NCBI GenBank assembly: GCA_019359375.1 | Contig: JAHHHL010000012.1 | Location: forward strand, 62,001 to 126,000 | Source: Lyngbya sp. HA4199-MV5 | GTDB lineage: Bacteria; Cyanobacteriota; Cyanobacteriia; Leptolyngbyales; Leptolyngbyaceae | DNA length: 64,000 bases | Direction: 5' to 3' | Shown: in pieces, positions 6,806-63,014 of the stretch | Numbering within the stretch: the first letter of the stretch is position 1 | How the letters are laid out: each line of letters begins with the position of its first letter | Made by a program: the position numbers and the translations under genes | Notes under the pieces: generated by a model | The model's input: the letters and a program-made list of their open reading frames with translations, nothing else | Databases searched by the model: none | Told to the model about the DNA's origin: nothing

Positions 6806-6818
6806 AAGAACTCCTGAA

Positions 6819-7553: not shown

Positions 7554-7885
7554 GCAGTTAAGTCTCCCATCAACACCCAAGCATCAGTGGCAGTCTTCCA
7601 AAGCGTCGCAGGACTGCCCGCTGTGCGTAGCTTGACGTGACTCCCCTCTGACACTACTGTTACAGGACTGGAGTAAGCAACGGTGACTTGTCCCGCGCCC
7701 AATTGGGCGAACAAGATTTGTGAGCCGATCGGGAAGGCGACGGAGGCATTAGAGGGAAGAGTGAGCGTGATTGAAGAAGCGTTATTAAGCGTCACGCCTG
7801 CCACTTCGTCACCGATCGACAGAGTGTAACTTGTGCCTGTCTGTGTGTTGGGGGCGCTTAGACTGGTTACCTTAATTGTTGGCAT
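7550..7885 (-). CDS. small beta-rich tail protein
   Basis: 111 aa. The pattern SITLTLPSNASVAFPIGSQI, then QVTVAYSSPVTV, matches short phage tail/fibre domains with repeated beta strands. It starts at the end of the tail-hub gene and overlaps the LamG gene by GTGA, so it belongs to the same unit. Likely a tip or fibre-base component. Confidence 0.6.
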   Translation of the reverse strand: MPTIKVTSLSAPNTQTGTSYTLSIGDEVAGVTLNNASSITLTLPSNASVAFPIGSQILFAQLGAGQVTVAYSSPVTVVSEGSHVKLRTAGSPATLWKTATDAWVLMGDLTA

Positions 7886-10254: not shown

Positions 10255-10754
10255 GGCGCTACCTTCCGATCGCTTTCTTCCAGCGCGACCACCGCCTCTA
10301 CCCGCGCTCCTTTGCGGTTAAATTTGGGCGGTTGCGTAAACCGAAAGTAATATTGCGCGAAGTAGCTGATCTCAGTCGCGCTGATGTTGCTGACGGTGTT
10401 GAAAGGTGCGGGCGCAAGCGCACGGGTGCGAGAGCCTTCCTCCTGAAACTCAGTCGTGGTATCAACCACTAGCGTTTCAACATTTGCCACAGGCTCACGC
10501 GCCTGTCTACGCTTCTCCTGCCGACGATACAGCCCGTCTAAAAGCTTCCATTCGTCCCACTCCAGAAAGGCACTGAAAACCAGGATGTGGGGCGCTTCGT
10601 AAACCCGACCGTACCCGACAAAGTTGCCATACGCCGATCGCTGGCTGGCTGGCTGCTCAACAATCAGGCGTGGAAACGCATCGCCTGCAAACTGATAGTC
10701 GTAGATGGTTAGGCTTAAGTCGCCTAGCGTGAAGCTGATGTATTGATTACTCAT
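10251..10754 (-). CDS. distal tail protein candidate
   Basis: 167 aa, immediately after the tape measure and coupled to it by a 4-base overlap. Small proteins at this place normally cap the tail tube and link it to the hub. The sequence (YISFTLGDLSLTIYDY, then VFSAFLEWDEWKLLDGLYRRQ) is compatible but not diagnostic; the call rests mostly on gene order. Confidence 0.55.
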   Translation of the reverse strand: MSNQYISFTLGDLSLTIYDYQFAGDAFPRLIVEQPASQRSAYGNFVGYGRVYEAPHILVFSAFLEWDEWKLLDGLYRRQEKRRQAREPVANVETLVVDTTTEFQEEGSRTRALAPAPFNTVSNISATEISYFAQYYFRFTQPPKFNRKGARVEAVVALEESDRKVAP

Positions 10755-13700
10755 AGTCCTGCCTGTCCCACCAGGCTCTTGCTGGCATCTGCCAAGATCT
10801 TGGAGGCATCGGCGACGGGGTTTGCCGTGATCGCCGTGACGTTAGGGCGGTTCATCGAGTTAGCGAGGCGTTCTCCAAGACGGTCGATCGCGCTACTCAA
10901 CGTACTGCTCAACTGCTGCAAACCGCCACCCATACCTTGCCCTGCCGCTTCCTGTACAGGGTTCCCGGTGGGGATGCCGTTGGGTGCGGTAGCAGCCACA
11001 AACCCATTGCCGCCAAAGGTTTGACCGGCGTTGTACGTCACGCCTGTAAAACCGCCACCTGCGGCTCCACCGTTGGGGTCAATACCACCAATAACTTTCA
11101 CTTTGGCGGCATCTGCCGTCTCTGCCAGCTCTCTGGCACGTCCCCTACCCGCCGCCGCGTTCTGCTCGGACTGTGCTCGTTCCGCTGCCGCCTGCTTGAT
11201 GTCTAGCGCTCCTAAACCTAGCTGCCCTACCTCTCTCTGAGTGGCGGCGTTTGCCTGAGCATTACCAATCTGAGCGCCCGTGATGGCAACGTTTTGAGAT
11301 GCCAGTGCAACCCCTTGTTGAGCATTGGCAATCTCATTGGCATCGCCCGTTTTGAGCGCTTTGAGTAGGGCTGACTTCTGCTCATTCTCGGCAATCCGAG
11401 CGCTCATATTCGCCCGTTGTGCCTCCAATACGTTATTGCGGGCAGTCACTTCAGCCTGCCGCAGCTTTAGTTTTTCGGTCTCTCGTTCGGCATCATTCTG
11501 CTTTTGCAGTGCTCTCAGCTTTTCGCGATCGGCAGCAGCTTCGGCGGACTGTTTGATCTGCACCAGCTTGACTAGATCGGCATTGTTGACCTTACCGCTA
11601 ATGCTTAGCCCAGCAAGTTGCCCAACCTGTGCTTGTAGCACCTGCCGTTGATTGGTCCCCAAGTCTTTACTCTGGAGTTTTTTGAAAGAGTCAACTGCTT
11701 CCGAGGCGCGATCGACCGCAGCCTTCAACTGCTGCTGACGCGCCTCTGACACCGCAGCGCTCACCTTTGCTTGAGCCTCTACCAGTTGGCTTTCGCGTTG
11801 AATGCTGCCTGCCAAGAGGTCATTGCTGGCTTTCTGCTGGTCAATCCCTGCATTAGCGGCGGTTAGCTGCCGTTTCTGGGCGTCGGCAACGTTCTGAATC
11901 CCCCGCAAAACTCGTTGTGTTTCCAGGTCTTGAATTTTGGCTCGCTCAGCATCTTGCTTTTGCAGGTTTTCGGTGATCTGGTTTTCGGCTTCCCGCGACC
12001 CGATGACTTTATCTTGCTGTAGCTTTTTAATCTCTTGCAGGTCAATTTGAGCTTGTGCTAAACGCTTCTGCGCGGCTTCGGCTTCGATCCTTTGGATCTC
12101 AGCCTGCCCACCTTCGCCAACGACACCATCGCCTGATAGCTGCGTTTGACGTGCAGAAAACGTTTGAGCCGCTGTGGCTCGCTCGATCGCAGCGTTAGCG
12201 ACTTTACTACGCTGCTCAAAATCAGCTTGCTCGCGTTGGCGACGGATGCCCAGCAGTTTGACACGTTCATTGTCGAGGGCTTGCTCGATCGCCAGCTCTT
12301 TTTCAGCAGCTTCACGGGCATCTAAAACGCCCGCTGCCCGCTGTTGCTTCGTGGCGGCTAATTCTTTTTGCTTCTGAGCAATGGTGTCGGTTGCCGTCCG
12401 CTCCTCAATCTGGCTCGTTTCAACGGTGCCACTCGCACTCGATAGCCGCGAGGCATTGGCGCGTCTAGCAATTGCCGCTTCTGCCTGTTTATTCTGGAAT
12501 TCAAACTGTTTGAGCGTTTCCCGATTGGCAGCATCACGCGCCTTGATCTGGTTGTCCAGGTCGGACTTCTCCGCACTGGCAAGTTTTTTCTGAAGCTCCG
12601 ATCGCTTGGTTGCTGCTTCCTTAGCCCCGATTTGCCCCGTTTTCTCAGCGGCATCAATCTGCGCGATCGACTCCTCAATCGCTTTCACCTTGCCCTGGCT
12701 CTCTTTTGCCTGAATTTGGGCGATCGCGGCTTCAGTCTCCTGAGCGGTTTTAGTGCGGGAAAGTTGGGCTTTTTTGGCAAGGGCGATTTCGCGATCGGCT
12801 GACTCGGAGAGCTTATTCTCCTTCAGCGTTAAATCACGGCTGAAATCTTGAATGTCTTTGAGCTGCCCCGATGCCGTTTTTTCAGAGGTATCGACACCTG
12901 CTCCCTTACTGCTACTGCCTTCACTTGTCGCAAGACTCTTGCTGTCAACCTTGAGATCAGCCTTTGCCTCTGCTGCTTTTCTGACCGCTCGTTCTTGAAA
13001 GGTTTCCTCTTCTGGCGCACCTGCATCACGCTTAGCCGCTGCCGCTTTTTGCACTGCCGCCGCCTGAAAATCTGCCTTGGCAGCATCTTCGTCAGGTTTC
13101 GCTAATGTCCGTTTGCGAACTTCGTCTAGCTGCTTTTGGGTCTCCTCAAACCGGATTTTCTCAATTTCTTGTGGCTTGATCGAGCCAAAGGTAAGGGGTA
13201 CCCCACCGATATCGGTGGTTAAGCTTTGCCGTCGCACTCGCGCCTGCGTCCGTTTTTCCGCAGCATCAGCATCGGCTTTGGTGCCCCCCGCACCCTGAAT
13301 TGCCTTACTCGCGCCTTCTTTGTCGCCAGCATCAGGATTGAGCAACCCTTTCAGCCGTTGAGCGCCTTCGCCCAGCTTGTCTACAACCTTGCCTGCAACT
13401 CCAACCGCCTCATTCAGCAGTTTGACAAACTCCACCGTGCCCGACACCAGATCGGCGATCGCGCGTGGGTTCTCCTTCAGATACTCCGTGAGCGATCGCG
13501 CACCGCTGGCAACGTCATCTGCCAACACCTTGCCTGCTTCACCCAACGCCAGCGCTAACTCTTTCGCCAGATCAGGATCTTGTTCCAGAGAAAGCTTAAA
13601 GCCTTCGGCACTGCCCTTCAGCCCATCCAGCAACCCACTGGATTTAAGGATTTCATTGGCAGTATCGGTGCCTAACTTGGCTAAGCCCTCAAAGGCAGGC

Positions 13701-22490: not shown

Positions 22491-22776
22491 TGTCGTCTCC
22501 TGCTTTGTCTAGCCCCATAATTGTCTCTAGCTGCCCTGGTTGATCGTAAGGATAAGAGATCTTCAGCCGCTCAGCTTCAGCGATCGATGCCTCGCATTGA
22601 GCAAAGATTTTTTGGATCTGGGGTGGCAGGTTAGCCTCTGTGTCTGCCTTTACGCAGTCGTTGATGAGGCGATCGCGCACAGCATCTCCATTGTCCGGTT
22701 CCTTGCTAATTTGATAGCGGAACAACGGACTACCCATGATCAGCGCCAGCTTCCGGCTCAGTTCAGCTTGCATCAA
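22480..22776 (-). CDS. small hypothetical head-region protein
   Basis: 98 aa, helical, starts MMQAELSRKLALIMGSPLF at the stop codon of the giant portal gene (4-base overlap) and overlaps the next gene by 11 bases. Coupled translation suggests a head-assembly role. Family not recognised. Confidence 0.6.
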   Translation of the reverse strand: MMQAELSRKLALIMGSPLFRYQISKEPDNGDAVRDRLINDCVKADTEANLPPQIQKIFAQCEASIAEAERLKISYPYDQPGQLETIMGLDKAGDDNAN

Positions 22777-25700
22777 AGCGCACCCGTTTTCTTTGCTTTG
22801 GTATAATCCAACTCATCTTTCTGAATCACGACCTTACTGCGGTTGAGCAGGGTCATAAAGGTCTTCTTTTCGTAGCTTTGATTGAGCGCTACGGCATCAT
22901 ACCCTTTGATCATAGCAAAATAGCTAATGCCGTTTGTATCGCCCAAATTTAAGCCCATGACGTGTTTGACTGCATCGATTTTGTCACGGAGCGCTTTCAG
23001 CTTTTGCTGTGTTACCTGGCTCGTCTGACCAGGAGCATGGGTTAACCCTGCTGCCTTCAAAGCATCTTCAGTAGACTTGCGAGCGATCGCCGCCCTGTGT
23101 CCTTTGTCGAGTGCTTCCTTTCTGGTTTTGACCTTCTGCCAACTGCCATTTTCATCCTGGTAGTGCCAGTCTTTTTGAGAGTGCCCCATGATCGCACCGA
23201 ACAAATCCTGCTCCGACTTGATCTGAAAATCAAGCTTGCTGCCTTTAGCGGTACTTGCGGCAGAGTAGCTGTGAAGCTCTTCTGCGCCAAAGTTAGTCTG
23301 TATTTTCCCAGTTAATTTGGGTTTGGCTGTACCGAACTCAGCGTCGTTATCGAGCGACGCTTTGGCGTGAGCAGCGTTGTACTTCTGCAAGTCTGCTGCA
23401 TTCAAGTTTTGCCCTGCGGATTGTATTCGCTTTTCTTCTGCCTTTTGCAAGACTTGTAATTTTTTCAGCGCGGCTTTGCGCTGGCTTTGGATGGCTGACT
23501 GTGTGGCAACCTTGGCATCCTTGGTCAGAGCCATCTGCATGGTGACGCTGCTGGAGTTGATGTAGTTATGTTTGGCAACGTCATCAAACGCCCGTTTAGC
23601 ATCTGCGGTCGCCGTTTTAGAATCGTGCCCCACAAACTTGCCGTTGACGATCGTGCCAGCGTGACCAACATACGTGCCATTCCCGTAGATGCCATTACCT
23701 GTAAAGTAATCGCCCGTTTGGAACTGTTTTAAGAATTGAGTGCGATCGGTGGTGCCTTGATTCACCCCGCGCACCATCAACGTCCCGCCGTCCTGCCATG
23801 TCTTAGTCACGTCAGCACTCGATCCGACCGTTGGCTTACCGTCATATCCGGCAATTTGGTACATCGCCTTGAGATACTTATCCCGCTCACCCGATGCCAT
23901 TTTGACTGTGGCGGCGTGAGTCGCAATAGTATCAACGTGTGTAAAAATGCCCTGCAAGTCGCCTTTGTCGAGAGCGTCATTCAGGTTGTGGAGAGCGTGA
24001 TCGGTCGGTGGCGTGATGATGTGATCGACTTCCTGACTGGAAAGCTTTTTGCCACTGACATACAGATCAACATTGTTTGCTTTGGCAAATTTTGCTACGT
24101 CTGCTGATGGTCGATCACTCACACCTGACGGCTCAAAGTGAATCGCAGCAATATCGGACGGTTTCACCCCACCATGCACCTGAGCCTCCATGTAAGCGTT
24201 GCCCGTAGGTGACAGCTTCGGTGCCAGATCGTCAATACTCTTTGCTTTGGCAGCATTTTGGAGGGCGGACTGGTCGTTCTGATCACCCTTCATGTAAGAG
24301 GGGTAGTGCGCGGGTAGCTGGTCGCGATCGTAGCCATGTCGTGTCAGGCTAACCAACGAAGCTGCGTTGGGGTTGTTTACTTCGCTAGCGATGCCTGACT
24401 TAAACGAATCGGCTCCAGTAAAGCTGGCACGGTCTTTGACATCGGACTTTAGCTTGACCGCGATCGAGCCATACGCTCGCGAGACATCGGCGTGAGACTG
24501 TCCATTCAGGTCGCTGCTTCCCAGATAGCCATAGATCGGGCGATCACCGGGCTGGGTCGTTTTCGCGTCGTAACCCAGTGTTCTCGCCTCCACTCGGTTC
24601 CGTGCATCTTGATAGTTCTTGTCTGCCAGGTTAGGGATACTATGTCCCGTGACGTTTAGCTCTGCCGATGTCTTGAAACCGCTGCCCAACACTTTTTCAA
24701 GCGTATCGGTCGATCCCACTCTCACAAACACATCGGCATCGCTTAGCACTTTCTTTGTGTTTGCTTCAGCATCCTGCACCAGCTTCTTGCCGAAACGTTT
24801 CTCCAGATCGGCGCGCTTACTGGTCAATTCGGTTTGATTGAGCTTGACTGGGTTGGCAGGCTGCGCTGGAGTTGTGCTGGAGATCGGAGTGTTGTTGGAC
24901 TGAGCTTTTGAGGTCGATCGCTTGCCAGTCTGTTTTGCTGCCTTCGACTTTGCGGCGGTTTGGGCTGGAGCTGCACCACCGCCCCCGGATGGCAACGGCG
25001 TTTTGCCGCCGTGCTGCGAGTGAGCCGCCGCGTAAGCAGCGTGATCCGGGTGGTTAGACTGCGCGGCTGGATGCGTATGCTTGCCAGTCGTCGCCGCCAT
25101 TGTGCCCTGATAAGCCGCGTGCCCTGGATGGTTGGGGTTAGCTGATGGATGCCCACCCGAAACACCTTTGGTGCACTTAGCTCCCGCCTTGATCCAACTC
25201 CGACCGCACGGCGTACCAGCATCTTCACGCCACTCATCGCATTCAAAGCTGTCCGATCGCGCTTCTGGAGACCAAACTGGCTCTGGTGCGTCCAGCCCAT
25301 TTGCCCGTTCAAACGGTGAAGCGCCGTCATCTGGTTCTAAGCCCTGCGATCGCAACTCTGCTAGTGACTTGGCTCTGAAGTCAGTCGCCCACTTGGTATC
25401 AATTAGCCCTAGCTGAAGCCAGCGCTCAGATGCCGGGGAGGCAAAACAACGACATGCAACGTGGGCTGGTAGCACAATGTCTTCCAACCGATAAATCTTC
25501 TGGTTACGGGCGGCGCAAAAAGGACAAAGGCGTGAGTCCAAAGTTGATTGCCAGGTGCCCAGTGACAACCCATTCGCCTGATAGCTAGCGATCGCACTCG
25601 CATTGCTGGCAGCAAGACTCTCAGTACGAGCAATGGCTGTAGCACGAGCTTTTACCACGCCTAACTGCTGGTGCAACAACGACGCTATTTTGTCCGTTCC

Positions 25701-28427
25701 AAAACCCTGTATCAGCCCTTGCGTGACAATGGTTGATGCTTTGTCTGCAAACGCTTCAGTGTGGTTGCGTAGCCGCGTCATGCCCTCTGTTGCTTGATTC
25801 ACGATCGCGGCTATAGGCACATTCGCCGTTGCCTGTAACTGCTGATTGGCGATCGCTCTGCTCAAGTCATCCGCCAGCGTCACCCCTTGAGCAGCCGCAC
25901 CCCGCAACAGGTCTTCAAAGGCTTGCTGGATGTCTTCAGCGCTACGTGTGTTGAGGAGTTGCAGCAGGTCAGACACCTGCAAGAGCAAGACCGCTGCTCG
26001 TTCACGACCCATGAGAGAGCCGGGTGTCTCCTGGCTGTAACTCCGCAGTATTTGCGCTTCTAACGCCTGGTAGCTGGATTCTAAAGCGCTGTTGACACGC
26101 TCGATCGCGCTATCCTCTAGTCCCTGGAGCAATTTGTCAGCGCGATCGATAATGCCGACGACTGGGTTTACCGCATCAATACGGCTCGTTCCACCAGTCG
26201 TTGTGGACTTTGGGAGTGTGCGATCGCTGCCTCCATCATCAGAATCAGCCCTGCCGTGACGCTCTTTGATGTCAGCAATTAATTTTCCGTAACGAGGCAC
26301 CTTATACAAAGGATCGTCGTGAATGGCTTTGCCTGCTTCTGCTGCAAAAGCATTCTTCTGGCTATCGCTCAAGCGATCGTAGATTTGAGCCGAATATTCT
26401 AGTACCGCTCGATTGTTTTCACCGCCAGCCACCCCTCTCATGCCCTGCCGCAGATTCGCTCCAGCATCCCGTACCTGGTCTGCATCCAACGACTGCTTGC
26501 CCCTGAGTCTACGTTGATCCTGCGTTCTGTCAAGCGCTGCTTCTGTACTGCCATTTGGATCGATTGGATGCAGCAATGCGTTCTTGTAGGCTTTATCACC
26601 CGCGTCGGATAGATCGAGTTTCGCAAGTTCAGCCAAGCGGCTTTTTACTTCAAAACTGCTGTGTCCATTTGCTTCTAGCGTTTCTTTATCACTTTTTGTT
26701 TTGGCAGGTTTAGCTTTAAGGGCAGCAAGTCTCTCTCGCGTGCTAGTCCTTGAACCGCTTTTGTTCTTTGCTGAGCGAGCCTTTGCAGAGTTAGTTTTTA
26801 CCTTTGGCAGTTCTTGAGGCGCGATTTCACCCTTGCCACCATGCACTGCAAATCCAGCTTTGTACGCCGCATGATCAGGATGGTCTGATGGTTTAGTGCC
26901 TTTCCACCCTTTACCACAAGCTGCATCCAGGCGTACTTTATCTAGTCGATCGTCATCGTCATCCTCGTCGTCTTCAAAAACATCACTCAGAGCAGAAACG
27001 GTGTCTTCTGTCTCATTCTCTCCCTCACCTTCTGCCTCTGCCTCCTCGCCCTCCGCCTCTGCTTGCTCTTCTGCCTCCGCTTGCTGCTTCGCCCATAGAT
27101 CTGGCTGTAACTGACGCTCGATCGTGTACTCACTGCCAGACCAGGCGCTTTCTCGCACCTCTTCTGGTAGTAGCACCCCTGCTTGGATTGAGGGCACATC
27201 TACGCCTTGCGTCTGGTCTTTGCGGAGCTCTGTTTGCTCTTTCAGGTTGAGGCGAAGTGCCGATCGATAGCTCACACCCCAACTATCAGGCAACCGTCCA
27301 CCTGTTGGTCCGTTTTGCGCTAGGAAAGTGAGCCGCAAGAAATCCTCGATCGGCTCTTCAAAAATCTCGGCACGGTAATCACTGACGCAATCCGCCCAGC
27401 CGTACTTGTCACCTGTTGCTGAGTTGCTCAATGCCGTCTTCTGCGAACTGCCCCAAAGCTGCGAAGGCGGCATTGCAGCAGCAGCAGAAGTATCATCCTT
27501 GAGTCGATCGATCAGCGCATCCAGTCCGCCAAAGTTGCGGCTGATAAAGGTGCCATCTTCCCGATCGGCATCCATTGCCAGCCCACCCAGGCTAGACATC
27601 GACATCAAAATGGCTTGAAACCGATGGAAGATCTTTTCCTGGTCGCCTGACTGAATCAGTTGCGCCAACCCTTGCAACTTGTAGACAAACTGGTTGTAAT
27701 CCTGCACCATGCGCGTCGAATACTCGATCGCAATCAGGTAGCGCACAAAGCTCTGGAAAAACGTTTGCAGCACTGAATCATGGAAGCCCGATGAACCAAT
27801 CAGCATGTCGCCCCAGAGCCTTTTGCCAGGGAAGCGGAGGACACGCGATCGATGAATCTTGCCGTTTACCTGTTGTCCAGGTAATGCTTCTGTTGCGGGC
27901 ACGTAAAGGCTATAAAGTTCAGGGTGCCCTGGTCGTCCTGTTTGCGTTTCAGGATAGATACGCCAGCGATCGACTGGATACAACCAGGAGATTTTACGGA
28001 TGCGTCCTTCGTTGACAGGTTCCCAAGGTTCACCACCGTCATCGATGCCAATAATCACAAAGCCGTCACCGTCCAGCCGTCCAGCGATCGCGGCTTCACG
28101 CACCATGCTTCGCAGCTTCAAATCTTCGCTGTACTGCACCGCTTTGGCAGGGATACCTTTGCGTCCCTTACCGATCGTCACCTCTAGCCAGTTGTTAGCA
28201 GTAGCAGCTTTGGGCAGCAGATCCACCACTTTCTCGCAGATTTTGCTCTTACGGTAGAGCGCTTGCAGTTCGACTCGCGAGAGCGGTGAGAAGTTGAGAT
28301 TGATGTTGTGCTCTAAATACTTGTCGCGTCCCTGTTGCCCTAATCCTGTCGCACGGTTGCCTAGCATCGCCAGGGCATTGAGGGCAACACCATCATTGCG
28401 TATTTCAGTAATCGCCGAATCGGTCAT
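22773..28427 (-). CDS. giant portal-MuF-ADP-ribosyltransferase-like polyprotein
   Basis: 1884 aa. Order: portal domain about 40-450 (LSRVELQALYRKSKICEKVV, WLYPVDRW, an ELRKDQTQGVD block); acidic linker about 450-500; a HPDHAAYKAG element about 515; MuF head-morphogenesis domain about 880-1010 with SRLCPFCAARN, then LPAHVACRC; a second HPDHAAY cluster about 1080-1130; an ADP-ribosyltransferase/DUF3626-like region about 1230-1430 with EAQVHGGV; a second ART-like segment about 1545-1590 (LMVRGV, QFQTGDYFTG, YGNGTYVG); then a basic helical tail. Portal and MuF form the packaging channel and an ejected protein. The C-terminal domains are probably toxins delivered with DNA; that role is inferred. 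Confidence 0.8.
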   Translation of the reverse strand: MTDSAITEIRNDGVALNALAMLGNRATGLGQQGRDKYLEHNINLNFSPLSRVELQALYRKSKICEKVVDLLPKAATANNWLEVTIGKGRKGIPAKAVQYSEDLKLRSMVREAAIAGRLDGDGFVIIGIDDGGEPWEPVNEGRIRKISWLYPVDRWRIYPETQTGRPGHPELYSLYVPATEALPGQQVNGKIHRSRVLRFPGKRLWGDMLIGSSGFHDSVLQTFFQSFVRYLIAIEYSTRMVQDYNQFVYKLQGLAQLIQSGDQEKIFHRFQAILMSMSSLGGLAMDADREDGTFISRNFGGLDALIDRLKDDTSAAAAMPPSQLWGSSQKTALSNSATGDKYGWADCVSDYRAEIFEEPIEDFLRLTFLAQNGPTGGRLPDSWGVSYRSALRLNLKEQTELRKDQTQGVDVPSIQAGVLLPEEVRESAWSGSEYTIERQLQPDLWAKQQAEAEEQAEAEGEEAEAEGEGENETEDTVSALSDVFEDDEDDDDDRLDKVRLDAACGKGWKGTKPSDHPDHAAYKAGFAVHGGKGEIAPQELPKVKTNSAKARSAKNKSGSRTSTRERLAALKAKPAKTKSDKETLEANGHSSFEVKSRLAELAKLDLSDAGDKAYKNALLHPIDPNGSTEAALDRTQDQRRLRGKQSLDADQVRDAGANLRQGMRGVAGGENNRAVLEYSAQIYDRLSDSQKNAFAAEAGKAIHDDPLYKVPRYGKLIADIKERHGRADSDDGGSDRTLPKSTTTGGTSRIDAVNPVVGIIDRADKLLQGLEDSAIERVNSALESSYQALEAQILRSYSQETPGSLMGRERAAVLLLQVSDLLQLLNTRSAEDIQQAFEDLLRGAAAQGVTLADDLSRAIANQQLQATANVPIAAIVNQATEGMTRLRNHTEAFADKASTIVTQGLIQGFGTDKIASLLHQQLGVVKARATAIARTESLAASNASAIASYQANGLSLGTWQSTLDSRLCPFCAARNQKIYRLEDIVLPAHVACRCFASPASERWLQLGLIDTKWATDFRAKSLAELRSQGLEPDDGASPFERANGLDAPEPVWSPEARSDSFECDEWREDAGTPCGRSWIKAGAKCTKGVSGGHPSANPNHPGHAAYQGTMAATTGKHTHPAAQSNHPDHAAYAAAHSQHGGKTPLPSGGGGAAPAQTAAKSKAAKQTGKRSTSKAQSNNTPISSTTPAQPANPVKLNQTELTSKRADLEKRFGKKLVQDAEANTKKVLSDADVFVRVGSTDTLEKVLGSGFKTSAELNVTGHSIPNLADKNYQDARNRVEARTLGYDAKTTQPGDRPIYGYLGSSDLNGQSHADVSRAYGSIAVKLKSDVKDRASFTGADSFKSGIASEVNNPNAASLVSLTRHGYDRDQLPAHYPSYMKGDQNDQSALQNAAKAKSIDDLAPKLSPTGNAYMEAQVHGGVKPSDIAAIHFEPSGVSDRPSADVAKFAKANNVDLYVSGKKLSSQEVDHIITPPTDHALHNLNDALDKGDLQGIFTHVDTIATHAATVKMASGERDKYLKAMYQIAGYDGKPTVGSSADVTKTWQDGGTLMVRGVNQGTTDRTQFLKQFQTGDYFTGNGIYGNGTYVGHAGTIVNGKFVGHDSKTATADAKRAFDDVAKHNYINSSSVTMQMALTKDAKVATQSAIQSQRKAALKKLQVLQKAEEKRIQSAGQNLNAADLQKYNAAHAKASLDNDAEFGTAKPKLTGKIQTNFGAEELHSYSAASTAKGSKLDFQIKSEQDLFGAIMGHSQKDWHYQDENGSWQKVKTRKEALDKGHRAAIARKSTEDALKAAGLTHAPGQTSQVTQQKLKALRDKIDAVKHVMGLNLGDTNGISYFAMIKGYDAVALNQSYEKKTFMTLLNRSKVVIQKDELDYTKAKKTGAL

Positions 28428-36622: not shown

Positions 36623-37222
36623 ATGCTGTGGAAACGAAAACAGAAACCACCGTCAATCCCTAAGTTTGGCGCGATCGCTAAGCCTGTTCTGCCTGTGGTG
36701 TATGAAGCCTACGGCTGCATTGAAACTCTTACTCCTCAACTGGTGCATTGGTTTACCATTGGCAGGCTTTCAAGCGCGACTGGCTATTCGAGACAGGTAT
36801 CGCCTGGGAAACTACTATCACAAAAAATATTGTCAACGGATGGCGATCGTGAAGAAGATCGGTTGCTCTGGCGATCGCTCCTCCAAGGATACCCCACCCA
36901 CTATTTAAGAATTTCCTATCAATTAAGTAGTCAACCTCCAGCGCCCGCCAAAGAAATTTTGCATGTGTGGCTTAACCTCAGTATCAGGGGCTATGACAAA
37001 GACTCGATCGCGCGATCGGTGGGTGAGTTTTTGACGTTTGTGGCACTCGATCAAAAACTGCCTGGGTTGCTCATCAGCACCAAGATTTACACAGCAGAGA
37101 GTTGGTTGATCTTTGTCTTTAGCCGGGTCCGTAGTTTCTACGTTGATGCTGGTATTGTCCAAGAGCGAGTGCCGCTTGACAATGTGCGCGGGTATGGCTT
37201 GCGTGGGAGGGAAGAACCTTGA
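36623..37222 (+). CDS. hypothetical protein paired with a pilin-like gene
   Basis: 199 aa, with a basic start (MLWKRKQKPP) and mixed alpha/beta body; no signal peptide. It ends by TTGA overlap with the pilin-like gene, so the two are translated together. Family not recognised. A partner or chaperone of the pilin is possible from coupling. Confidence 0.55.
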   Translation: MLWKRKQKPPSIPKFGAIAKPVLPVVYEAYGCIETLTPQLVHWFTIGRLSSATGYSRQVSPGKLLSQKILSTDGDREEDRLLWRSLLQGYPTHYLRISYQLSSQPPAPAKEILHVWLNLSIRGYDKDSIARSVGEFLTFVALDQKLPGLLISTKIYTAESWLIFVFSRVRSFYVDAGIVQERVPLDNVRGYGLRGREEP

Positions 37223-37659
37223 GCGATCGCCGTCAGGGTTTCACGCTGCCAGAGCTGCTGCTTGTTCTCTTTCTCATTGGACTGTTAGCGGCGATCGCTA
37301 TCCCTACCTACCTCGCCCAAGCTCAAAAAGCGCGTGACGTGCAAATTCAGACAGATTTGCGATCGGTGGCGATCGACCTGCAAGCCTATGCCGCTCACTA
37401 TGGCTACCCGCCCGATGCACCACCAGGTGCTGAGCCTGCACCTGAAATCAGTTTTCCTGTAGAGCCTGGTCGTGAAGTAGATTACGATCGCGCCTCTGCC
37501 AAAGATCCCATCCCCTGCTACAACGGGCAGCGCTGGGTGAAAATTGTGAGCTATCCCAATAGTGGACGGACAGATGATTATCGCAAGCCAGGGGCGATCG
37601 GTGAGTGGACGCACACTGGCAAGGATTGGGCACTTACTTTGTGGGTGGGAAAATGTTAA
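37219..37659 (+). CDS. type IV pilin/pseudopilin-like protein
   Basis: 146 aa with TTG start overlapping the upstream stop. The leader MSDRRQG is followed by FTLPELLLVLFLIGLLAAIA: class III signal with Glu at +5 and a hydrophobic helix, then IPTYLAQAQKARDVQIQTDLRSV, as in GspG-like pseudopilins. It ends in Cys, with one more Cys in the body. No assembly ATPase or peptidase is encoded here, so the host machinery would be needed. Confidence 0.85.
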   Translation: MSDRRQGFTLPELLLVLFLIGLLAAIAIPTYLAQAQKARDVQIQTDLRSVAIDLQAYAAHYGYPPDAPPGAEPAPEISFPVEPGREVDYDRASAKDPIPCYNGQRWVKIVSYPNSGRTDDYRKPGAIGEWTHTGKDWALTLWVGKC

Positions 37660-38011: not shown

Positions 38012-38405
38012 TCAAAGCCACAAAACAAGGATGAAAATCAAAGCACCCAGCCCGCCACCAAACACATGGTTGCTGGACAGCGATGCACCCAACGCCACAA
38101 AGATAGCAGCGACAAGCAGCATTTTCAGGGAGCAGGGCAAACGTCCCCAATTGTGAGCAAGGCGCTGGGGCAGGTTGGGATAATGTTTTTGCTGGCGAGG
38201 GCGCTTCCAGCCTGAAAGCAACCCATGAATCAGCCAGTCGTGCGCGGCAGGCGATAAGACCAGAACATCCCACCAATAGGTCTCGTGCCCCAGGTTGCGG
38301 TAATCGAGATGGTGCATGGCGTAATGATGTTTGCGCCCTACTTTTGGGGTGTTTGTCGCGCCATGCTGGAGAAGTGATGTAAGTGCGGTAGTTGGTTTTA
38401 CTCAA
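38012..38405 (-). pseudogene. frameshifted HNH-like/membrane-tail protein
   Basis: One frame starts MSKTNYRTYITSPAWRDKHP; the other continues K-VGRKHHYAMHHLDYRNLGHE, then AAHDWLIHGLLSGWKR and a hydrophobic C-terminus. Joining them requires removing one base in the AAAA run at 38342-38345. The joined product has the H-H-x-x-Y-x-N-L-G-x-E and AH-x-x-IHG blocks of HNH-like cyanobacterial proteins, though without a clear zinc-binding Cys set. Either a recent one-base mutation, a sequencing error or a programmed shift. Confidence 0.6.
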
Positions 38406-38414
38406 CTGTCTCTC

Positions 38415-40352
38415 CTACCTAAGGTCTAAACCATTCTTCTGTACTAAGGCAATAACTTCATTGCTTGGAGTGGCAAAACTGACATTTGAAAAACCGCCGT
38501 TCTCGTTAAGCCATGCAGATTTATTCACACCGATCATTTCACCTTGCTGATTAAATAATGGACCACCGGAGTTGCCATACCGCAAAGCGATCTTCGCTTT
38601 GATGTCAGCACCCCTCAAACCAAGAATGTACCCTTGGTTTATTTTTGCCTTGTTGGCGGGATTGCCAATTGAGCAAACTTTCTCGTTAGGCTGAACAGCC
38701 TTAGCCGCCAAACTTACAACAGCTAGCGACTGAGCGGTAACTACTTTTACAATTGCAAGATCTCGCAATTGATTAAAAGCAACTACAGTGCCCTGGAAAT
38801 TCTGCCCTGAAGCCAAACGGATATAGATTTTATTTTTCCTGTCCGCGATTGCTTCTTTCACTACGTGGTGATTAGTGACGATTAAGCCATCACTGGAAAT
38901 CACGCTACCTGAACCAATCTCATAACCTGCATAAATTTGAGCAAATGCGGGGTTGTTCGTTATACATACTGACTGATAGCCGCTTTCATGCGAGACTGAC
39001 GCGACTTTCTGCTTTTCCACTTTAGAACACACTTGGATTGTATAGTCCAGGATCGATGGATACTTGCCTTGCGGGGTGCTGCTGTTTTTGTTGCTAGCGC
39101 TGCCTGAGTACCAAAAAGAAGCCGTCGATCGACAAGCTTCAAAGCTACTCTCTCCGGCTTTACGCGCTCGTTTAAACTCCTGTGTGAGTTTGCAGGTAGC
39201 AATCTTTTCCTGATGATCCGGGCTGCCAAGAAACTGCTGAGCCGTAAGCTGTTGCCCTAAACACTCCTGTGACCAGGAAGGCACATTGGCAGGCATAATC
39301 TGATATTTACCCAAGGCACCCGAATCAGCATTAGTAGTCGCATAATCACCGCCCGATTCTTGATTGGCGATCGCCTTGATGACTGGATTGCTACTACCTG
39401 CCGATCGTGCCGTCGCACCGACAACCGCCATCTCCAAATAGCCGCGCTGGGGTGGAATATATTTGCCGCCCACTTTTTGACCCCAGTGCAAATGCGGTCC
39501 GGTTGAATTGCCCGTGTTGCCAGAAAGTGCGAAGACTGAGCCTGTTTTATGGCTACCAGGATCGCACTGGGATAAATGTGCAGCGAGAAAGCTATAAAGC
39601 TGCCCAGAGGGTTTGATCACGGCATAGGTGCCTGCTGCGTTACCCTCAGATTCAGAGTGGCATTCTACCGTGCCTGACATCGGCATTTTGATGGCAGTAC
39701 CCACAGGCAAAGCAACATCGGCACCTTGATGATTAGTAGAACCGATGCCGCCTGGACTGGAACGCAAGCCGAAGCCGCTGGTTACAGCGTAGCTGCCAAT
39801 TTTTTGCCCTTGTTGCACGACTGAAGTGTCGATTATTTCATCGCCTTCCTGCAAGGGCAACTCATCTAGCTTGCTGTCGTGCATCGGCACCAATCCAGAG
39901 ACAGGAAGGATGGCGTGCAGAATGATTTTCGCCCAATCTGTAGGGGACGCGCCTTTAACCAATTGAGCCGCCATCAAAATGGCAAGGCACACCCAAGGGG
40001 CAATGAGGTGAAACCCTAGCGTGTTGATGTAGAGCGATTCTTGTACGTCGCCTGAAACATCGTTGAGTTTGCGTTTGATTCCTTTCTCTACGCGGTTAAG
40101 CTTTAACTCAAAGAAATAATCCCAAGCGTCTTTCGGATCTGGCTTGTCTTTGGGCTGACTGCTCGACCGCTTAAGACTTGTTTCGATGCCATCCAAACGA
40201 TCGTTGATTTTGGATAACGCTGCTGCTAGGTCATTGCTAACAGCCCCACCTGACTGGTACTCAGCAACATCGCTATCACTAGCAAATTTGCCTTTATGTC
40301 TGCCGCTGGTATGCCTATAGCGATTAACGTCTGGATCAAACTCAATAGCCAT
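38415..40352 (-). CDS. membrane-anchored M23 peptidase-lytic transglycosylase-HtrA-like protease fusion
   Basis: 645 aa. Order: a phage-type start (FDPDVNRYRHTSGRHKGKF), coiled coil about 40-100, one membrane helix about 108-132, M23 endopeptidase about 185-305 with NHQGAD (H208, D212) and GPHLHWG (H287, H289), lytic transglycosylase about 322-440 with NQESGG (E332) and GALGKYQIMP, then a trypsin-like domain about 470-645 with VTNHHVV (H496), RDLAIVKV (D531) and GNSGGPLF (S595). All catalytic residues are present. The enzymes should face the periplasm and cut peptide cross-links, glycan strands and proteins. It is the last gene of the module shared with the P-loop ATPase. Confidence 0.85.
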   Translation of the reverse strand: MAIEFDPDVNRYRHTSGRHKGKFASDSDVAEYQSGGAVSNDLAAALSKINDRLDGIETSLKRSSSQPKDKPDPKDAWDYFFELKLNRVEKGIKRKLNDVSGDVQESLYINTLGFHLIAPWVCLAILMAAQLVKGASPTDWAKIILHAILPVSGLVPMHDSKLDELPLQEGDEIIDTSVVQQGQKIGSYAVTSGFGLRSSPGGIGSTNHQGADVALPVGTAIKMPMSGTVECHSESEGNAAGTYAVIKPSGQLYSFLAAHLSQCDPGSHKTGSVFALSGNTGNSTGPHLHWGQKVGGKYIPPQRGYLEMAVVGATARSAGSSNPVIKAIANQESGGDYATTNADSGALGKYQIMPANVPSWSQECLGQQLTAQQFLGSPDHQEKIATCKLTQEFKRARKAGESSFEACRSTASFWYSGSASNKNSSTPQGKYPSILDYTIQVCSKVEKQKVASVSHESGYQSVCITNNPAFAQIYAGYEIGSGSVISSDGLIVTNHHVVKEAIADRKNKIYIRLASGQNFQGTVVAFNQLRDLAIVKVVTAQSLAVVSLAAKAVQPNEKVCSIGNPANKAKINQGYILGLRGADIKAKIALRYGNSGGPLFNQQGEMIGVNKSAWLNENGGFSNVSFATPSNEVIALVQKNGLDLR

Positions 40353-40355
40353 TGA

Positions 40356-40532
40356 TTACTCCTTTGGCGTTGGAGGCTGCATCTGATTTGCTTCCTTACC
40401 AATCAATGGCACTTGCCAACCTGTAGCTTTCTGAAGCTCTTGATTAGCAGGTGCAATCAGCCCAGGTGTAAGGATGTTGGCAGCTACCCACAGCATGAAA
40501 AGGTAATACAACCCGATCGCAGTTCTTGCCAT
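40356..40532 (-). CDS. 58-aa membrane protein
   Basis: MARTAIGLYYLFMLWVAANI gives one hydrophobic helix at the N-terminus, then a Pro/Gln-rich tail. The start ATGA overlaps the stop of the upstream gene, and it ends 3 bases before the multidomain enzyme gene. Coupling on both sides supports a real gene in the same complex. Confidence 0.65.
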   Translation of the reverse strand: MARTAIGLYYLFMLWVAANILTPGLIAPANQELQKATGWQVPLIGKEANQMQPPTPKE

Positions 40533-40723
40533 CACTCCACCCCGTTCGGTGGCACCGGATTGCGGTTTTCAGCAGGGCGCGTTTGACCAGTCAAGATAAA
40601 CGTGGCTACGTTCCACAACACTTTGACCGTGCCTGCCACATCCACCGACAGTTTCACCGTGCCCGATCCCATGAGGTTAAAAAGCAGCAACACAATCACC
40701 AACGTCCCGATCGTCTTACGCAT
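40532..40723 (-). CDS. 63-aa membrane or secreted protein
   Basis: MRKTIGTLVIVLLLFNLMGS is a basic-plus-hydrophobic N-terminus, either a signal peptide or a membrane anchor; a second apolar stretch (VAGTVKVLWNVATFILTG) follows. Overlaps the ATPase gene by 8 bases. Might be a pore or coat-like subunit of the ATPase module. Inferred. Confidence 0.6.
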   Translation of the reverse strand: MRKTIGTLVIVLLLFNLMGSGTVKLSVDVAGTVKVLWNVATFILTGQTRPAENRNPVPPNGVE

Positions 40724-42008
40724 GAGTCAATCCTCCAACTTTGTCTAATGCACCTTCCCAAACCTGTTTCACCCGTTGATATTTCGGGTCGTTGTTGCGT
40801 AGCTCTCTCAACCCACAAAGAGCCGCAATTTGTCGCAGCGGGCTTTTAATTTCTTTGGCGTTGAACTGTTCAGCCAGATGCTCAATCTCTGCCATCACAG
40901 ACTCACTGAACGTCTGCTGCGACCAAACCTCTAAAGGATCTGTTTCATCCACAGGCAGCTTAAGTTCAATGTTGCTCACGCTCAAATTAGGAATCAGTCG
41001 GATACTGATCTCCTGGTTGATGCGCACCACACCCAACCGTCTTGCACCTAAACCTTGGATACCTTTAACCCGATCGATGATGCTGTTCACATCCTCCACT
41101 CCTAACCGCCGCAACGGGTCAGCTTTCTGTGCTGAGGTGTTAAGCACGATCGTATTGAACGAGTCTTGCGCTGCCAATGACAGTCCTGTGTCGGTGACAG
41201 TCAGGTTTTGGATGCCGCAAATCACCTTGATCCGCTGCTTCAACCCTCGATTAATGACATTCTTAAACGCACTGATGAGAGCATTGGCTTCATCCTTGCC
41301 ACGACTCTTAGCCATGTCAGTTACAGCGATCAACTCGTCGATCGCCAATAGTCTTGGCTGCCAATTGCGGGCATGTGTTGGATCTTGGCTTGCCTCTGCC
41401 CGCCGATCGACCTCTGCTGATTCGGCAATGATCGCATCCCGAATTTGCTCATACGTCGAACGGATGTAGCGATCGCGTGGCAGGTGAAACCACCAATTCG
41501 GTTCACTGCCTTCATGGGCACTCCCATAATCGAGGTCACAGATGGTGACGTGCAGGTTGGGCTGGTGCTGAAAGTGGTGGGCTAGCTGCCACAACAAGAA
41601 AGTGGTCTTACCGTCACCAGACACACCGCACACCAACTGCGATCGACGACTAAAATCACCCAGCCACTCACCCTTAATCGATTCAGTCTCCAACCACGCT
41701 TGCATGTTGGTACTGAGTTCCTTTTGCAGGTGCTTCACCTGAATCAGTTTGCGGGCTTCGCCAATGTCCGATCGCTGCAACCCATACACCTGGAATAGAT
41801 GCTGCCAGCCTTCGGCAAACGTGTTAACTCCCAGTGCCAGCGCCTGAATGTAATCGCTATTATTCAGTTGCTCTTTGCGGTTTACGCCCACAGAGCCACC
41901 CAGCAGGGTCAGCCCTGCATAAAACCCGATCGGGCTACGAATGGTAGACATCACCAGTGCAGCACTACTTGCTAGCAGCAGGCTTGTTAGCGCTTTTGGT
42001 TGGTTCAT
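40716..42008 (-). CDS. membrane-anchored P-loop ATPase (FtsK/HerA/TraD-like)
   Basis: 430 aa. Two hydrophobic helices at about 6-40, a linker, then Walker A GVSGDGKTT (128-136), CDLDYGS about 157-163, Walker B RLLAIDEL (219-226) and a conserved-looking GIQN about 265-268. This layout fits the HerA/FtsK group of DNA- or protein-pumping ATPases, including conjugative coupling proteins. No relaxase, VirB4 or other transfer gene lies nearby. It shares an operon with membrane proteins and a wall-degrading enzyme, suggesting transport across the envelope. Substrate unknown. Confidence 0.75.
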   Translation of the reverse strand: MNQPKALTSLLLASSAALVMSTIRSPIGFYAGLTLLGGSVGVNRKEQLNNSDYIQALALGVNTFAEGWQHLFQVYGLQRSDIGEARKLIQVKHLQKELSTNMQAWLETESIKGEWLGDFSRRSQLVCGVSGDGKTTFLLWQLAHHFQHQPNLHVTICDLDYGSAHEGSEPNWWFHLPRDRYIRSTYEQIRDAIIAESAEVDRRAEASQDPTHARNWQPRLLAIDELIAVTDMAKSRGKDEANALISAFKNVINRGLKQRIKVICGIQNLTVTDTGLSLAAQDSFNTIVLNTSAQKADPLRRLGVEDVNSIIDRVKGIQGLGARRLGVVRINQEISIRLIPNLSVSNIELKLPVDETDPLEVWSQQTFSESVMAEIEHLAEQFNAKEIKSPLRQIAALCGLRELRNNDPKYQRVKQVWEGALDKVGGLTHA

Positions 42009-42666
42009 CAGCTTTTACTGGATTGAGAAAATTGGTACCGAGGATCAGAGAATACTGAGCGATCGCTTCATTTGCCGCGTCAAGATACTCTTTCGGCGCG
42101 ATCGCTTTGTCGCTAACAGCTTCTCCTTTCTTGACCGCACGTAAGGCATGAAGGCAGGCTAATGAATCAATGAAGCGGTCTTTCAACACGGCGAACTGCT
42201 CAACATCGCCCGATAGCGACCCATAACGCTTGGAGGCTTTGGCATAATCGCGGTACTGCTCAGCGTAAGTTTGCACTAACCAATACTCGGCATTGCTGCT
42301 CTTCTGCGCCTGTCGCTGAAACTGGTCGGCTCTGATCTTAATGAGCAACCCGAAATCACGATCACCTGTCGCAACGGCTTTATCCAGTGTGCTAATCAAG
42401 TCATCCATTGATGGTGAGTCAGTGGCAGGGGCTAGAGCTTGCCCATCCTTCTGCACCTGCCTCTGCACAGCAGCATCACGGACTGGTGTAGCTGGTGGGT
42501 TCTGGTGGGGTCGGGTAATCAGAGGCAACGCGATCGCGCCCACTACCACACCAAAGAACAACAGCTTACCTGCAAAGGTCGGCTTCCCTGGCGATGGGTT
42601 TGTCGAAGTTGGTGGGGTTGGTGTATGCCCATTTTGAGCGTTAAATTCTGGTGTGTCTGAAAGCAT
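41965..42666 (-). CDS. bitopic membrane protein of the ATPase module
   Basis: 233 aa. A Pro/Thr-rich cytoplasmic start (TPTPPTSTNPSPGKP), one membrane helix at about 32-50 (KLLFFGVVVGAIALPLI), then a helical extracytoplasmic domain. Overlaps the ATPase gene by 44 bases. No recognised family. The domain could span the periplasm toward the multidomain enzyme. Confidence 0.6.
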   Translation of the reverse strand: MLSDTPEFNAQNGHTPTPPTSTNPSPGKPTFAGKLLFFGVVVGAIALPLITRPHQNPPATPVRDAAVQRQVQKDGQALAPATDSPSMDDLISTLDKAVATGDRDFGLLIKIRADQFQRQAQKSSNAEYWLVQTYAEQYRDYAKASKRYGSLSGDVEQFAVLKDRFIDSLACLHALRAVKKGEAVSDKAIAPKEYLDAANEAIAQYSLILGTNFLNPVKADEPTKSANKPAASK

Positions 42667-42755: not shown

Positions 42756-43130
42756 CTACGGATCGACTTTTTGATCCTCTCGCAGCGAAAGCAGGTTGCT
42801 TAAGCTGTCCAATTCAGCAGCAGTCAGGGTGCCGCGCTGCATTTGACGAGTGATAAATTTAGCCACTACCGCATCGTCATCGCGCTCTGGTATCGCTAGT
42901 GCAGTGGCTATGACTGCTGCGACAACAGACAAACCAGCAAACGGCGCAATGTGCGTCATCACCACACCCAGGAAGCGCTCACGCCCCTGCACGGTGGTGG
43001 CAGGATAGTTCTCTAAATAGTGGTTGGTGGCAACGCCAGTAGCGAGAAAAGCGGCAAAACCACTAGCGATCGCGCTGCTCAGTGTCTTCAGGGTGAGGCG
43101 CTGTAAAACTTTTGAGTAAGGGTTGGGCAT
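42756..43130 (-). CDS. two-span membrane protein
   Basis: 124 aa from ATG 43130 (MPNPYSKVLQRLTLK); the longer start at 43178 is less likely. Membrane helices at about 20-38 and 65-90. Acidic cytoplasmic C-terminus (LSLREDQKVDP). Member of the same operon. Confidence 0.6.
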   Translation of the reverse strand: MPNPYSKVLQRLTLKTLSSAIASGFAAFLATGVATNHYLENYPATTVQGRERFLGVVMTHIAPFAGLSVVAAVIATALAIPERDDDAVVAKFITRQMQRGTLTAAELDSLSNLLSLREDQKVDP

Positions 43131-43178
43131 GGCTGATAGAGAGGGTATAGAGAACGCCGAAAAGGAAGGCGAGAGCAA

Positions 43179-43718
43179 TCAATCCTGAGACTTTCCCAGG
43201 CTTTGTAACGCTGTTAAACCTTCGGTGAGGCTAACAGTCTCAGCATTTGTGGCAGTGTGCAACCTGTTAGTTTCCATCTGGTAGAGACGCGCTTCTAGCT
43301 CCAACTTCTGACGCTTGGCTGCGATCGCAGCAGCGGCTTGCTTGGTCTGCTGCAATTTCTGTTCGCGCTGTTGAATGTCAACTGCCATTGAGGTTTCAAG
43401 CTGATCAGCCGCATTGATGAACTGAGCGGCTAGAGCCAACGGATCTTCGTAGGTTTGCACCTCAGAGACTCGTAAACCTTCCAGGGTGTACGTTTGTGGC
43501 AACTGAGGAGCGCCTAAAACAATCTGATGGTTACCAACCTCTACGGTTACAGGGGAAGCCTCAACGACTGGCTTCAGGTCAAACTCATGCATGAGCATGT
43601 CAAGGTCAACAGGGTTAAGACCATCCGTGATGTCCAAATTCAACTCTTGACAACGACGGTGAACGGTCGTTTTAGAAAGCTTGTTGTCCCTGCAAAATTT
43701 GGTTAAAGATGTGTTCAT
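43179..43718 (-). CDS. helix-turn-helix/coiled-coil protein, first gene of the module
   Basis: 179 aa. Residues about 5-30 (LTKFCRDNKLSKTTVHRRCQ) form a helix-turn-helix resembling resolvase- or MerR-like readers; a beta section follows (VEVGNHQIVLGAPQ), then a long Gln/Ala-rich coil about 95-165. It could regulate its own operon or recruit DNA to the ATPase. The array of GGAAC boxes starts 26 bases upstream of its start codon. Confidence 0.6.
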   Translation of the reverse strand: MNTSLTKFCRDNKLSKTTVHRRCQELNLDITDGLNPVDLDMLMHEFDLKPVVEASPVTVEVGNHQIVLGAPQLPQTYTLEGLRVSEVQTYEDPLALAAQFINAADQLETSMAVDIQQREQKLQQTKQAAAAIAAKRQKLELEARLYQMETNRLHTATNAETVSLTEGLTALQSLGKSQD

Positions 43719-62159: not shown

Positions 62160-63014
62160 ATGCAAAAAATTGACGACCTGCGTGATGCCAACCTGAGTGG
62201 TGCCGACCTGAGTGGTGCCAACCTGAGTGGTGCCAACCTGAGTGGTGCCAACTTGAGTGGTGCCGACCTGAGTGATGCCAACTTGCGTGGTGCCAACTTG
62301 AGTGGTGCTGACCTGAGTGGTGCCGACCTGAGTGATGCCAACCTGAGTGGTGCTGACCTGAGTGGTGCTGACCTGAGTGGTGCTGACCTGAGTGGTGCTG
62401 ACCTGAGTGGTGCTGACCTGAGTGGTGCCAACCTGAGTGGTGCCAACCTGAGTGTTGCCGACCTGAGTGGTGCCAACTTGAGTGGTGCTGACCTGAGTGG
62501 TGCCGACCTGAGTGATGCCGACCTGCGTGATGCCAACCTGAGTGATGCCAACCTGAGTGGTGCTGACCTGAGTGGTGCTGACCTGAGTGGTGCTGACCTG
62601 AGTGGTGCCAACTTGAGTGGTGCTGACCTGAGTGGTGCCAACCTGAGTGGTGCCAACCTGAGTGGTGCGATCGGTATTGGCGAGCAATCTGAATATGCTG
62701 TTGGGCTGGTGAAACAAATCGCAGAGATTGTGCTAGCCGACAACTCAAAACTACAAATGGATAAAGTGCATGTGTGCGAAACAACTCATTGCTTAGCGGG
62801 TTGGGTTTGCACACTGGATCAAACTGCCAAGACGCTAGAGCCAATTTTTGGTTGGAACGCCGCAGCTTGCTTAGCAGTGCCGATCCCTGCGTTTACAGAC
62901 TTATTTTTTGCTGACAACGCCACCGCGATCGCCTTCCTTCAGAAAGTGCAGAGCGGTGCCATTGATTTGAGCCGTAGGACGATCGCGCACAAACTTGACG
63001 CAGGAGAGCAATGA
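62160..63014 (+). CDS. pentapeptide-repeat protein
   Basis: 284 aa. Residues 9-168 are about 32 repeats of A-[DN]-L-[SR]-x, predicting a right-handed quadrilateral beta-helix. Such proteins may mimic DNA and protect gyrase; that role is not shown here. The C-terminus ([20 protein letters not shown], then [13 protein letters not shown]) is a domain seen in phage and cyanobacterial proteins. It overlaps the RecT-like gene by 4 bases. Confidence 0.85.
62170..62670 (+). repeat. 15-bp tandem repeat array in coding DNA
   Basis: The unit CCTGAGTGGTGCCAA and near-identical variants run in tandem. Synonymous sites are also nearly uniform, so the array was recently expanded by slippage or recombination. 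Confidence 0.9.

Follow-up and report, generated by a model that had tools for sequence, protein, structure and literature searches.

P0001, a Prophage-Encoded M23-SLT-Trypsin Protein, Is the Most Complex Form of a Wall Hydrolase with Swapped Domains Encoded in an Operon of Cyanobacterial Mobile Elements

P0001, a membrane-anchored protein encoded by a cyanobacterial prophage, is the most complex form of a conserved wall hydrolase that swaps its domains and is found in a little-studied operon of cyanobacterial mobile elements. This view is drawn from what can be read in the sequence, i.e., the domains and their catalytic motifs, the anchoring segment, the conservation of the operon, the domain swapping, and the presence on phages as well as plasmids. 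As to its function, P0001 may open the cell envelope as part of a mobile-element module that is centered on a DNA-translocase-like ATPase of the membrane, a reading that we advance tentatively and rate at slightly below even chances.

Domain Organization of P0001

The start of P0001 is preceded by a good ribosome-binding site (AAGGAG). Pfam profiles and hydropathy agree with the original prediction that three enzymes follow a transmembrane (TM) helix in the order M23, SLT, and trypsin on one membrane-anchored chain (Table 1). When the segments were searched against profiles, Peptidase_M23 matched residues 207-300 (8e-12; 45.6 bits vs. a cut-off of 28.7), SLT matched residues 315-396 (1.3e-4; 22.0 bits, barely above the cut-off of 21.3), and Trypsin_2 matched residues 480-609 (4.4e-25). 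The catalytic residues are all visible, as had been claimed. The M23 motifs are intact (HxxxD, as HQGAD from H208; AAHLS from 257; PHLH from 286), the SLT part contains the catalytic E332, GALGKYQIMP and WYSG, and the triad motifs of a serine protease are present as TNHHVV, D531, and GNSGG. Structure prediction bears out two of the catalytic folds: an AlphaFold2 model based on 8 sequences supports those of the M23 and trypsin domains; the SLT core is not resolved in it, with pLDDT values <50 at residues 313-353. A chance or broken ORF was rejected, as the catalytic motifs are intact and relatives exist. Chance is excluded for the architecture because of the profile E-values and a relative in Tildeniella nuda, which has 58% identity and the same M23-SLT-trypsin architecture.

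The protease had been called HtrA-like. In Foldseek searches, the trypsin part matched DegS-deltaPDZ, HTRA1, and cyanobacterial HhoA, with TM-scores of mostly 0.7-0.8 for PDZ-less targets, and it shares the fold of the protease domain and the triad with these HtrA/Deg proteases. However, unlike them, it is fused to wall hydrolases, and P0001 lacks the PDZ domain of HtrA/Deg (S1C), since it stops right behind the protease domain; with 95.6 bits, it also falls far short of the cut-off of 416 of the NCBIfam HtrA models. Thus, the label was appropriate for a trypsin-like domain with its triad but not for the PDZ-containing whole, and, judged by its sequence, this part is an HtrA-type protease domain and no full HtrA.

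Residues 1-113, upstream of the TM helix, are predicted to be cytoplasmic. Over a wider stretch flanking the helix, positive charge is higher on the N-terminal than on the C-terminal side, which suggests that the N-terminus is inside and the enzyme domains are outside. Some doubt attaches to this topology because the AlphaFold2 model contains a second, weakly hydrophobic helix at residues 137-152.

A search of plasmids and phages with the whole of P0001 yielded mostly single-domain matches and none spanning >80% of the query. Streptomyces phages have SLT-like domains close to that of P0001 in their minor tail proteins, and tape measure families match its M23 part, as might be expected if P0001 were packed in the virion to open the wall at infection. 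The TM anchor, the site of the gene outside the structural gene block, and the plasmid copies discussed below speak against such an entry enzyme, which we consider highly improbable. The TM anchor and the location also speak against a polyvalent injected protein (PMC5512222), and this candidate was rejected.

A short motif of the type FDP..NRYR...GR.KGKFAS is located near the N-terminus of P0001 (residues 4-26) and of several module hydrolases. Other sites are L035:9371-11539, L034:6683-7711, L128:5078-6289, and L094:19379; besides the hydrolases, a head-type protein from the prophage of T. nuda shares the motif. Possibly, it is a common targeting tag.

The Prophage and the Operon

The window, i.e., the whole stretch of 64,000 nucleotides that was analyzed, is part of a 158-kb contig in a 6.9-Mb cyanobacterial genome. 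It represents a tailed prophage of ~72 kb, a feature absent from the original prediction, with genes for TerL, a portal-MuF fusion, and tail proteins and, by inspection, a long tape-measure-like ORF. A 72-kb viral contig in IMG/VR (L023, L065) encodes both P0001 and the ATPase with 100% identity; the closest relative identified is T. nuda, which belongs to the same genus. P0001 is encoded in a tight minus-strand run in the order HTH-like gene, p140, p233, ATPase, 63-aa protein, 59-aa protein, P0001, and p101, several of which overlap by a few bases. Simple promoter and terminator scans of the sequence gave results at chance level.

TABLE 1. Features of P0001 and its operon, with positions in the window.
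Feature	Position	Strand	Basis
179-aa protein, HTH-like N-terminus; conserved operon-first gene in one branch	43179..43718	-	Profile search; HTH by inspection
p140, 140 aa, two TM helices, conserved partner	42756..43178	-	Hydropathy, profile search
p233, 233 aa, one TM helix, conserved partner	41965..42666	-	Hydropathy, profile search
P-loop ATPase, 430 aa, N-terminal membrane segment, HerA/FtsK superfamily	40716..42008	-	Profile, fold
Small membrane protein, 63 aa, overlaps ATPase stop	40532..40723	-	
Small membrane protein, 59 aa, between ATPase and P0001; equivalent of PaV-LD ORF124 ("holin") by position only	40356..40535	-	
P0001, membrane-anchored M23-SLT-trypsin protein, 645 aa	38415..40352	-	Single ORF
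TM helix of P0001, residues 114-132	39957..40013	-	Hydropathy
M23/LytM endopeptidase domain, residues ~188-303	39444..39791	-	Pfam, motifs, model
SLT lytic-transglycosylase-like domain, residues ~313-450	39003..39416	-	Pfam, motifs
HtrA-type trypsin domain, no PDZ, residues ~466-640	38433..38957	-	Pfam, motifs, fold
p101, 101 aa, two TM helices at the C-terminus; downstream position conserved in T. nuda	38012..38317	-	

A P-loop ATPase adjoins P0001 in the same operon, as had been anticipated. It matched no Pfam family, but profiles of HerA (1e-9) and EccC/FtsK (6e-8) did match, which on sequence grounds places it in the HerA/FtsK superfamily. Its top Foldseek match is TcpA, the coupling protein for conjugation of plasmid pCW3 (E 1.5e-5), with modest TM-scores of 0.35-0.44. 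Both are FtsK-like membrane proteins, and their likeness is at the fold level only, with 10-12% identity. Like FtsK, HerA, and TcpA, the ATPase has a P-loop motor of this superfamily behind an N-terminal hydrophobic segment, and it is probably a DNA-translocase-like motor. TcpG of the Clostridium plasmid pCW3 is a peptidoglycan hydrolase; besides the TcpA-like ATPase, no Tcp proteins were recognized here. A distant copy of the ATPase (L128) was still matched in profile-profile comparison (E 9e-20). The mixed ATPase profile A3 covered too much diversity to be of use in pattern scans and, on whole genomes, missed known kinds of members, perhaps as few candidates get scored.

EccC/EssC ATPases of type VII secretion also rank among the best matches by sequence as well as by fold, and the ATPase might accordingly export proteins, with the hydrolase making room for the channel. 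However, TcpA and HerA score at least equally, no WXG100-like cargo was noticed by inspection, and ParM and replication-type neighbors of the module indicate DNA elements, all of which makes protein export quite improbable.

Spread of the Operon on Phages and Plasmids

The operon comprises an HTH-like or ParM-like gene followed by p140, p233, the ATPase with its N-terminal TM segment, tiny TM proteins, and a TM-anchored wall hydrolase. Operons of this kind were found in about 20 other cyanobacterial loci, i.e., in prophages, in phage PaV-LD, and on plasmids without annotated phage genes. The whole operon or a large part of it is present in the window, T. nuda, Pantanalinema, PaV-LD, two plasmids of Oscillatoria acuminata, and genomes G007, G085, G340, G196, G165, G336, G317, G339, G168, G044, G212, G124, and G162. 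When the fetched loci were searched with profiles, p140, p233, the HTH-like protein, and the ATPase were recovered, although not every locus has all four. Direct searches with two ATPase queries each hit 12 of 390 cyanobacterial genomes, in sets that overlap but are not identical; the true count is higher, since divergent branches turned up through the hydrolase.

In other copies, ParM/actin-like genes often replace the HTH-like gene at the start of the operon (L131:3324-4298, L031:11072-12055, L033:5962-6987, L055:9138-10148). Several genomes within one genus (G177, G291, G310, G339) each have two copies of near-identical M23+SLT modules (L132, L136-L141), which suggests recent spread.

In several cases, the context is that of a phage. 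Terminase- and portal-like ORFs are found on the same contig in T. nuda, for which there is also a 70-kb IMG/VR contig (L064); in Pantanalinema, portal- and capsid-like ORFs were seen by inspection within 10 kb; on viral contig L066, the ATPase is followed by terminase-like ORFs; and PaV-LD itself is a phage carrying the module. The plasmids pOSCIL6304.01 and pOSCIL6304.02 of O. acuminata are complete and circular and carry the module together with ParM and a DUF5906 protein; no phage genes are annotated on them in PLSDB, where annotation is incomplete, and pOSCIL6304.02 carries a MOBP relaxase. Their module resembles that of the window in having a TM protein, a homologous ATPase, and a TM-anchored M23 enzyme plus glycosidase, but the latter is GH108 instead of SLT, and a trypsin domain is absent. 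Contigs L069, L072, and L090, on which we recognized no structural genes of phages, encode DUF3854/DUF3987 proteins. Contig L092 has a tape-measure-like ORF of 1213 aa (10022-13663) in the vicinity of the module, ParA, and an integrase, but otherwise no obvious phage genes. Two suspected relaxases were rejected: near L033, where the sequence had suggested MobF, the only Pfam match was to a helicase C-terminus and stayed below the threshold, and the 1109-aa ORF of L131 is a PAS/GAF protein.

When expressed in E. coli and Synechocystis, PaV-LD ORF123, an M23 protein with a TM segment, and ORF124 had bacteriostatic effects, and they were named endopeptidase and holin, respectively (PMC9096620). 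The order of the operon in this phage is the same as in the window, its ATPase (ORF127; FtsK/SpoIIIE) is homologous (2e-15), and its TM-anchored M23 protein likewise comes after small proteins. In contrast to P0001, however, the peptidase and the glycosidase are encoded by separate genes, with GH108 (ORF122) in place of SLT, and there is no trypsin domain. By analogy with these published lysis genes, P0001 could be the endolysin of the prophage, with the small TM neighbors acting as holins, the enzyme degrading the wall when the infection cycle ends, and the trypsin domain helping to destroy envelope proteins. Endolysins typically swap domains, and no other wall hydrolase was recognized in the prophage in scans that were not exhaustive: phage-lysozyme families have no match in the genome, amidase_2 matches are on other contigs only, and none of 20 other window ORFs scanned matched a lysis family. 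On the other hand, the same operon occurs on plasmids without annotated phage genes, where lysis makes little sense, its partner genes encode a membrane ATPase and HTH-like or ParM-like proteins, it is separate from the late genes in both the window and PaV-LD, and the enzyme is tethered to the membrane. Lysis is the main rival to a role in DNA passage and may apply to the phage copies, but overall we regard it as rather unlikely.

Domain Swapping and Origin of the Trypsin Domain

The combination of domains in P0001 had been considered unfamiliar. Indeed, neither the M23-SLT-protease fusion nor the cyanobacterial operon as a unit was found described in the open-access papers searched, but the individual domains and the general layout are already known, and P0001 is no lone oddity, as it belongs to a conserved family of hydrolases that swap domains. 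M23+SLT without a third domain is the common form (G085, G124, G162, and many others). The exact triple M23-SLT-trypsin was found in two genera or more, and beside such an ATPase, as the original prediction envisaged, in T. nuda (L031/L067) and G162 (L131) as well as in the window. Other variants are M23 with an unknown region and trypsin (Pantanalinema), SLT+trypsin as a separate protein (G007), M23 and SLT as separate adjacent genes (G340, G196), M23 and GH108 fused (both O. acuminata plasmids) or as separate genes (PaV-LD), M23+GH24 (L072, L091), M23 with a second region of no assigned family (L069), and, below the cut-off, a CHAP-like protein in the place of the hydrolase (L092). In L034, a TM-anchored protein of 342 aa without a Pfam match (6683-7711) takes the place of the M23 enzyme and is possibly an unrecognized wall hydrolase. 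Thus, a putative peptide cutter and a putative glycan cutter are usually paired behind a TM helix, either fused or side by side, and P0001 is predicted to be such a fused pair plus a protease.

Between the window and T. nuda, identity is 83% in the SLT part and 71% in the M23 part vs. 35% in the trypsin part, and the trypsin domain of the window is closer (47%) to trypsin-like proteins that genomes of this genus encode at other sites. Constraining the trypsin domains of the window and T. nuda together was mildly disfavored, with long branches (p-AU 0.035). In the M23-SLT tree, L131 is placed apart from the window and T. nuda, with trypsin-less proteins in between (p-AU 0.025), and this placement implies at least two changes. 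Probably, the trypsin domain was gained on two or more occasions, for which these small trees provide moderate evidence. The triad motifs are kept in the copies checked, in L131 as judged by Pfam, which argues for use of the domain, and its repeated acquisition by a wall cutter points to some protein barrier or partner that also needs cutting. The idea that P0001 may cut three barriers at one site is plausible. Scanning viral contigs with the trypsin part alone retrieved the same virus only. Three adjacent host trypsin-like genes (G000:C91:37448-40699) are kin of the protease domain of P0001.

Possible Role in the Transfer of Element DNA

The proposal that P0001 may open the wall where a membrane motor moves the DNA of the element is based on the TcpA-like ATPase and on a parallel with PrgK, the wall hydrolase of the conjugative enterococcal plasmid pCF10 (DELTA-family T4SS). 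PrgK consists of an inside domain, a TM segment, and LytM, SLT, and CHAP domains, and it has been proposed to clear space in the wall of the donor for a DNA-transfer channel (PMC11323569). In layout, the two proteins correspond, with an N-domain, one TM segment, LytM, SLT, and a third enzyme. However, the third enzyme is CHAP in PrgK and a serine protease in P0001, and LytM of PrgK lacks the metal site, whereas the M23 motif of P0001 is intact. Furthermore, PrgK functions within a full Gram-positive T4SS, whereas the genome encoding P0001 is without a VirB4-type match.

In the scheme that we infer, which extends from the topology and activity of P0001 to DNA as the cargo, its direction, and the role and target of the protease, one helix would hold P0001 in the inner membrane with its N-domain inside, reaching the ATPase and the small membrane partners. 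The M23 and SLT domains would cut peptide cross-links and glycan at one spot, creating a local hole in the peptidoglycan, and the trypsin domain would trim a protein obstacle or partner there or process P0001 itself. Through this hole, the DNA of the element, i.e., a plasmid or a phage in a prophage or plasmid-like stage, would pass out of or between cells. Several findings speak against a role in transfer: genes for terminase, portal/MuF, and tail proteins mark the element in the window as a prophage, the TM-scores of the ATPase to TcpA are low, the M23 gene of the PaV-LD module was reported as part of a lysis module, and matches to known transfer genes are scarce in the genome.

VirB4 (PF03135) and TrwC had no match in the genome, and its sole relaxase match (PF03432) is on another contig, which indicates that the P0001 module is no member of a known T4SS, although it may work like part of one. 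Conceivably, plasmids and phages of cyanobacteria use the operon, with its FtsK/TcpA-like membrane motor, tethered wall-drilling enzyme, and, in some lineages, a protease, as a minimal machine to pass DNA between cells without a T4SS, perhaps along filaments, but we consider this broader idea unlikely. Known transfer genes are absent from most cyanobacterial plasmids, and conjugation by a mechanism not yet known has been suggested (PMC8600333). A conserved operon with a TcpA/FtsK-like motor and a tethered hydrolase, present on plasmids as well as phages, is a concrete, testable candidate for it. T4SS-independent transfer, if true, would provide a mechanism for many seemingly immobile cyanobacterial plasmids, and a role in transfer would call for re-examining the "lysis module" of PaV-LD.

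Other Features of the Prophage

Type IV pilin-like N-termini (GFTLIELLVVIIIIG...) are present in proteins encoded at 6275-6841 (-) and 37219-37659 (+) of the window and at L032:9235-9855 in T. nuda; these proteins sit inside the block of phage tail genes and near the module. The portal-MuF fusion mentioned above (22773-28427, -; 1884 aa) combines a phage portal, a MuF domain, and DUF3626. A pentapeptide-repeat-like protein with GADLSGANL repeats is encoded in the early region (62160-63014, +).
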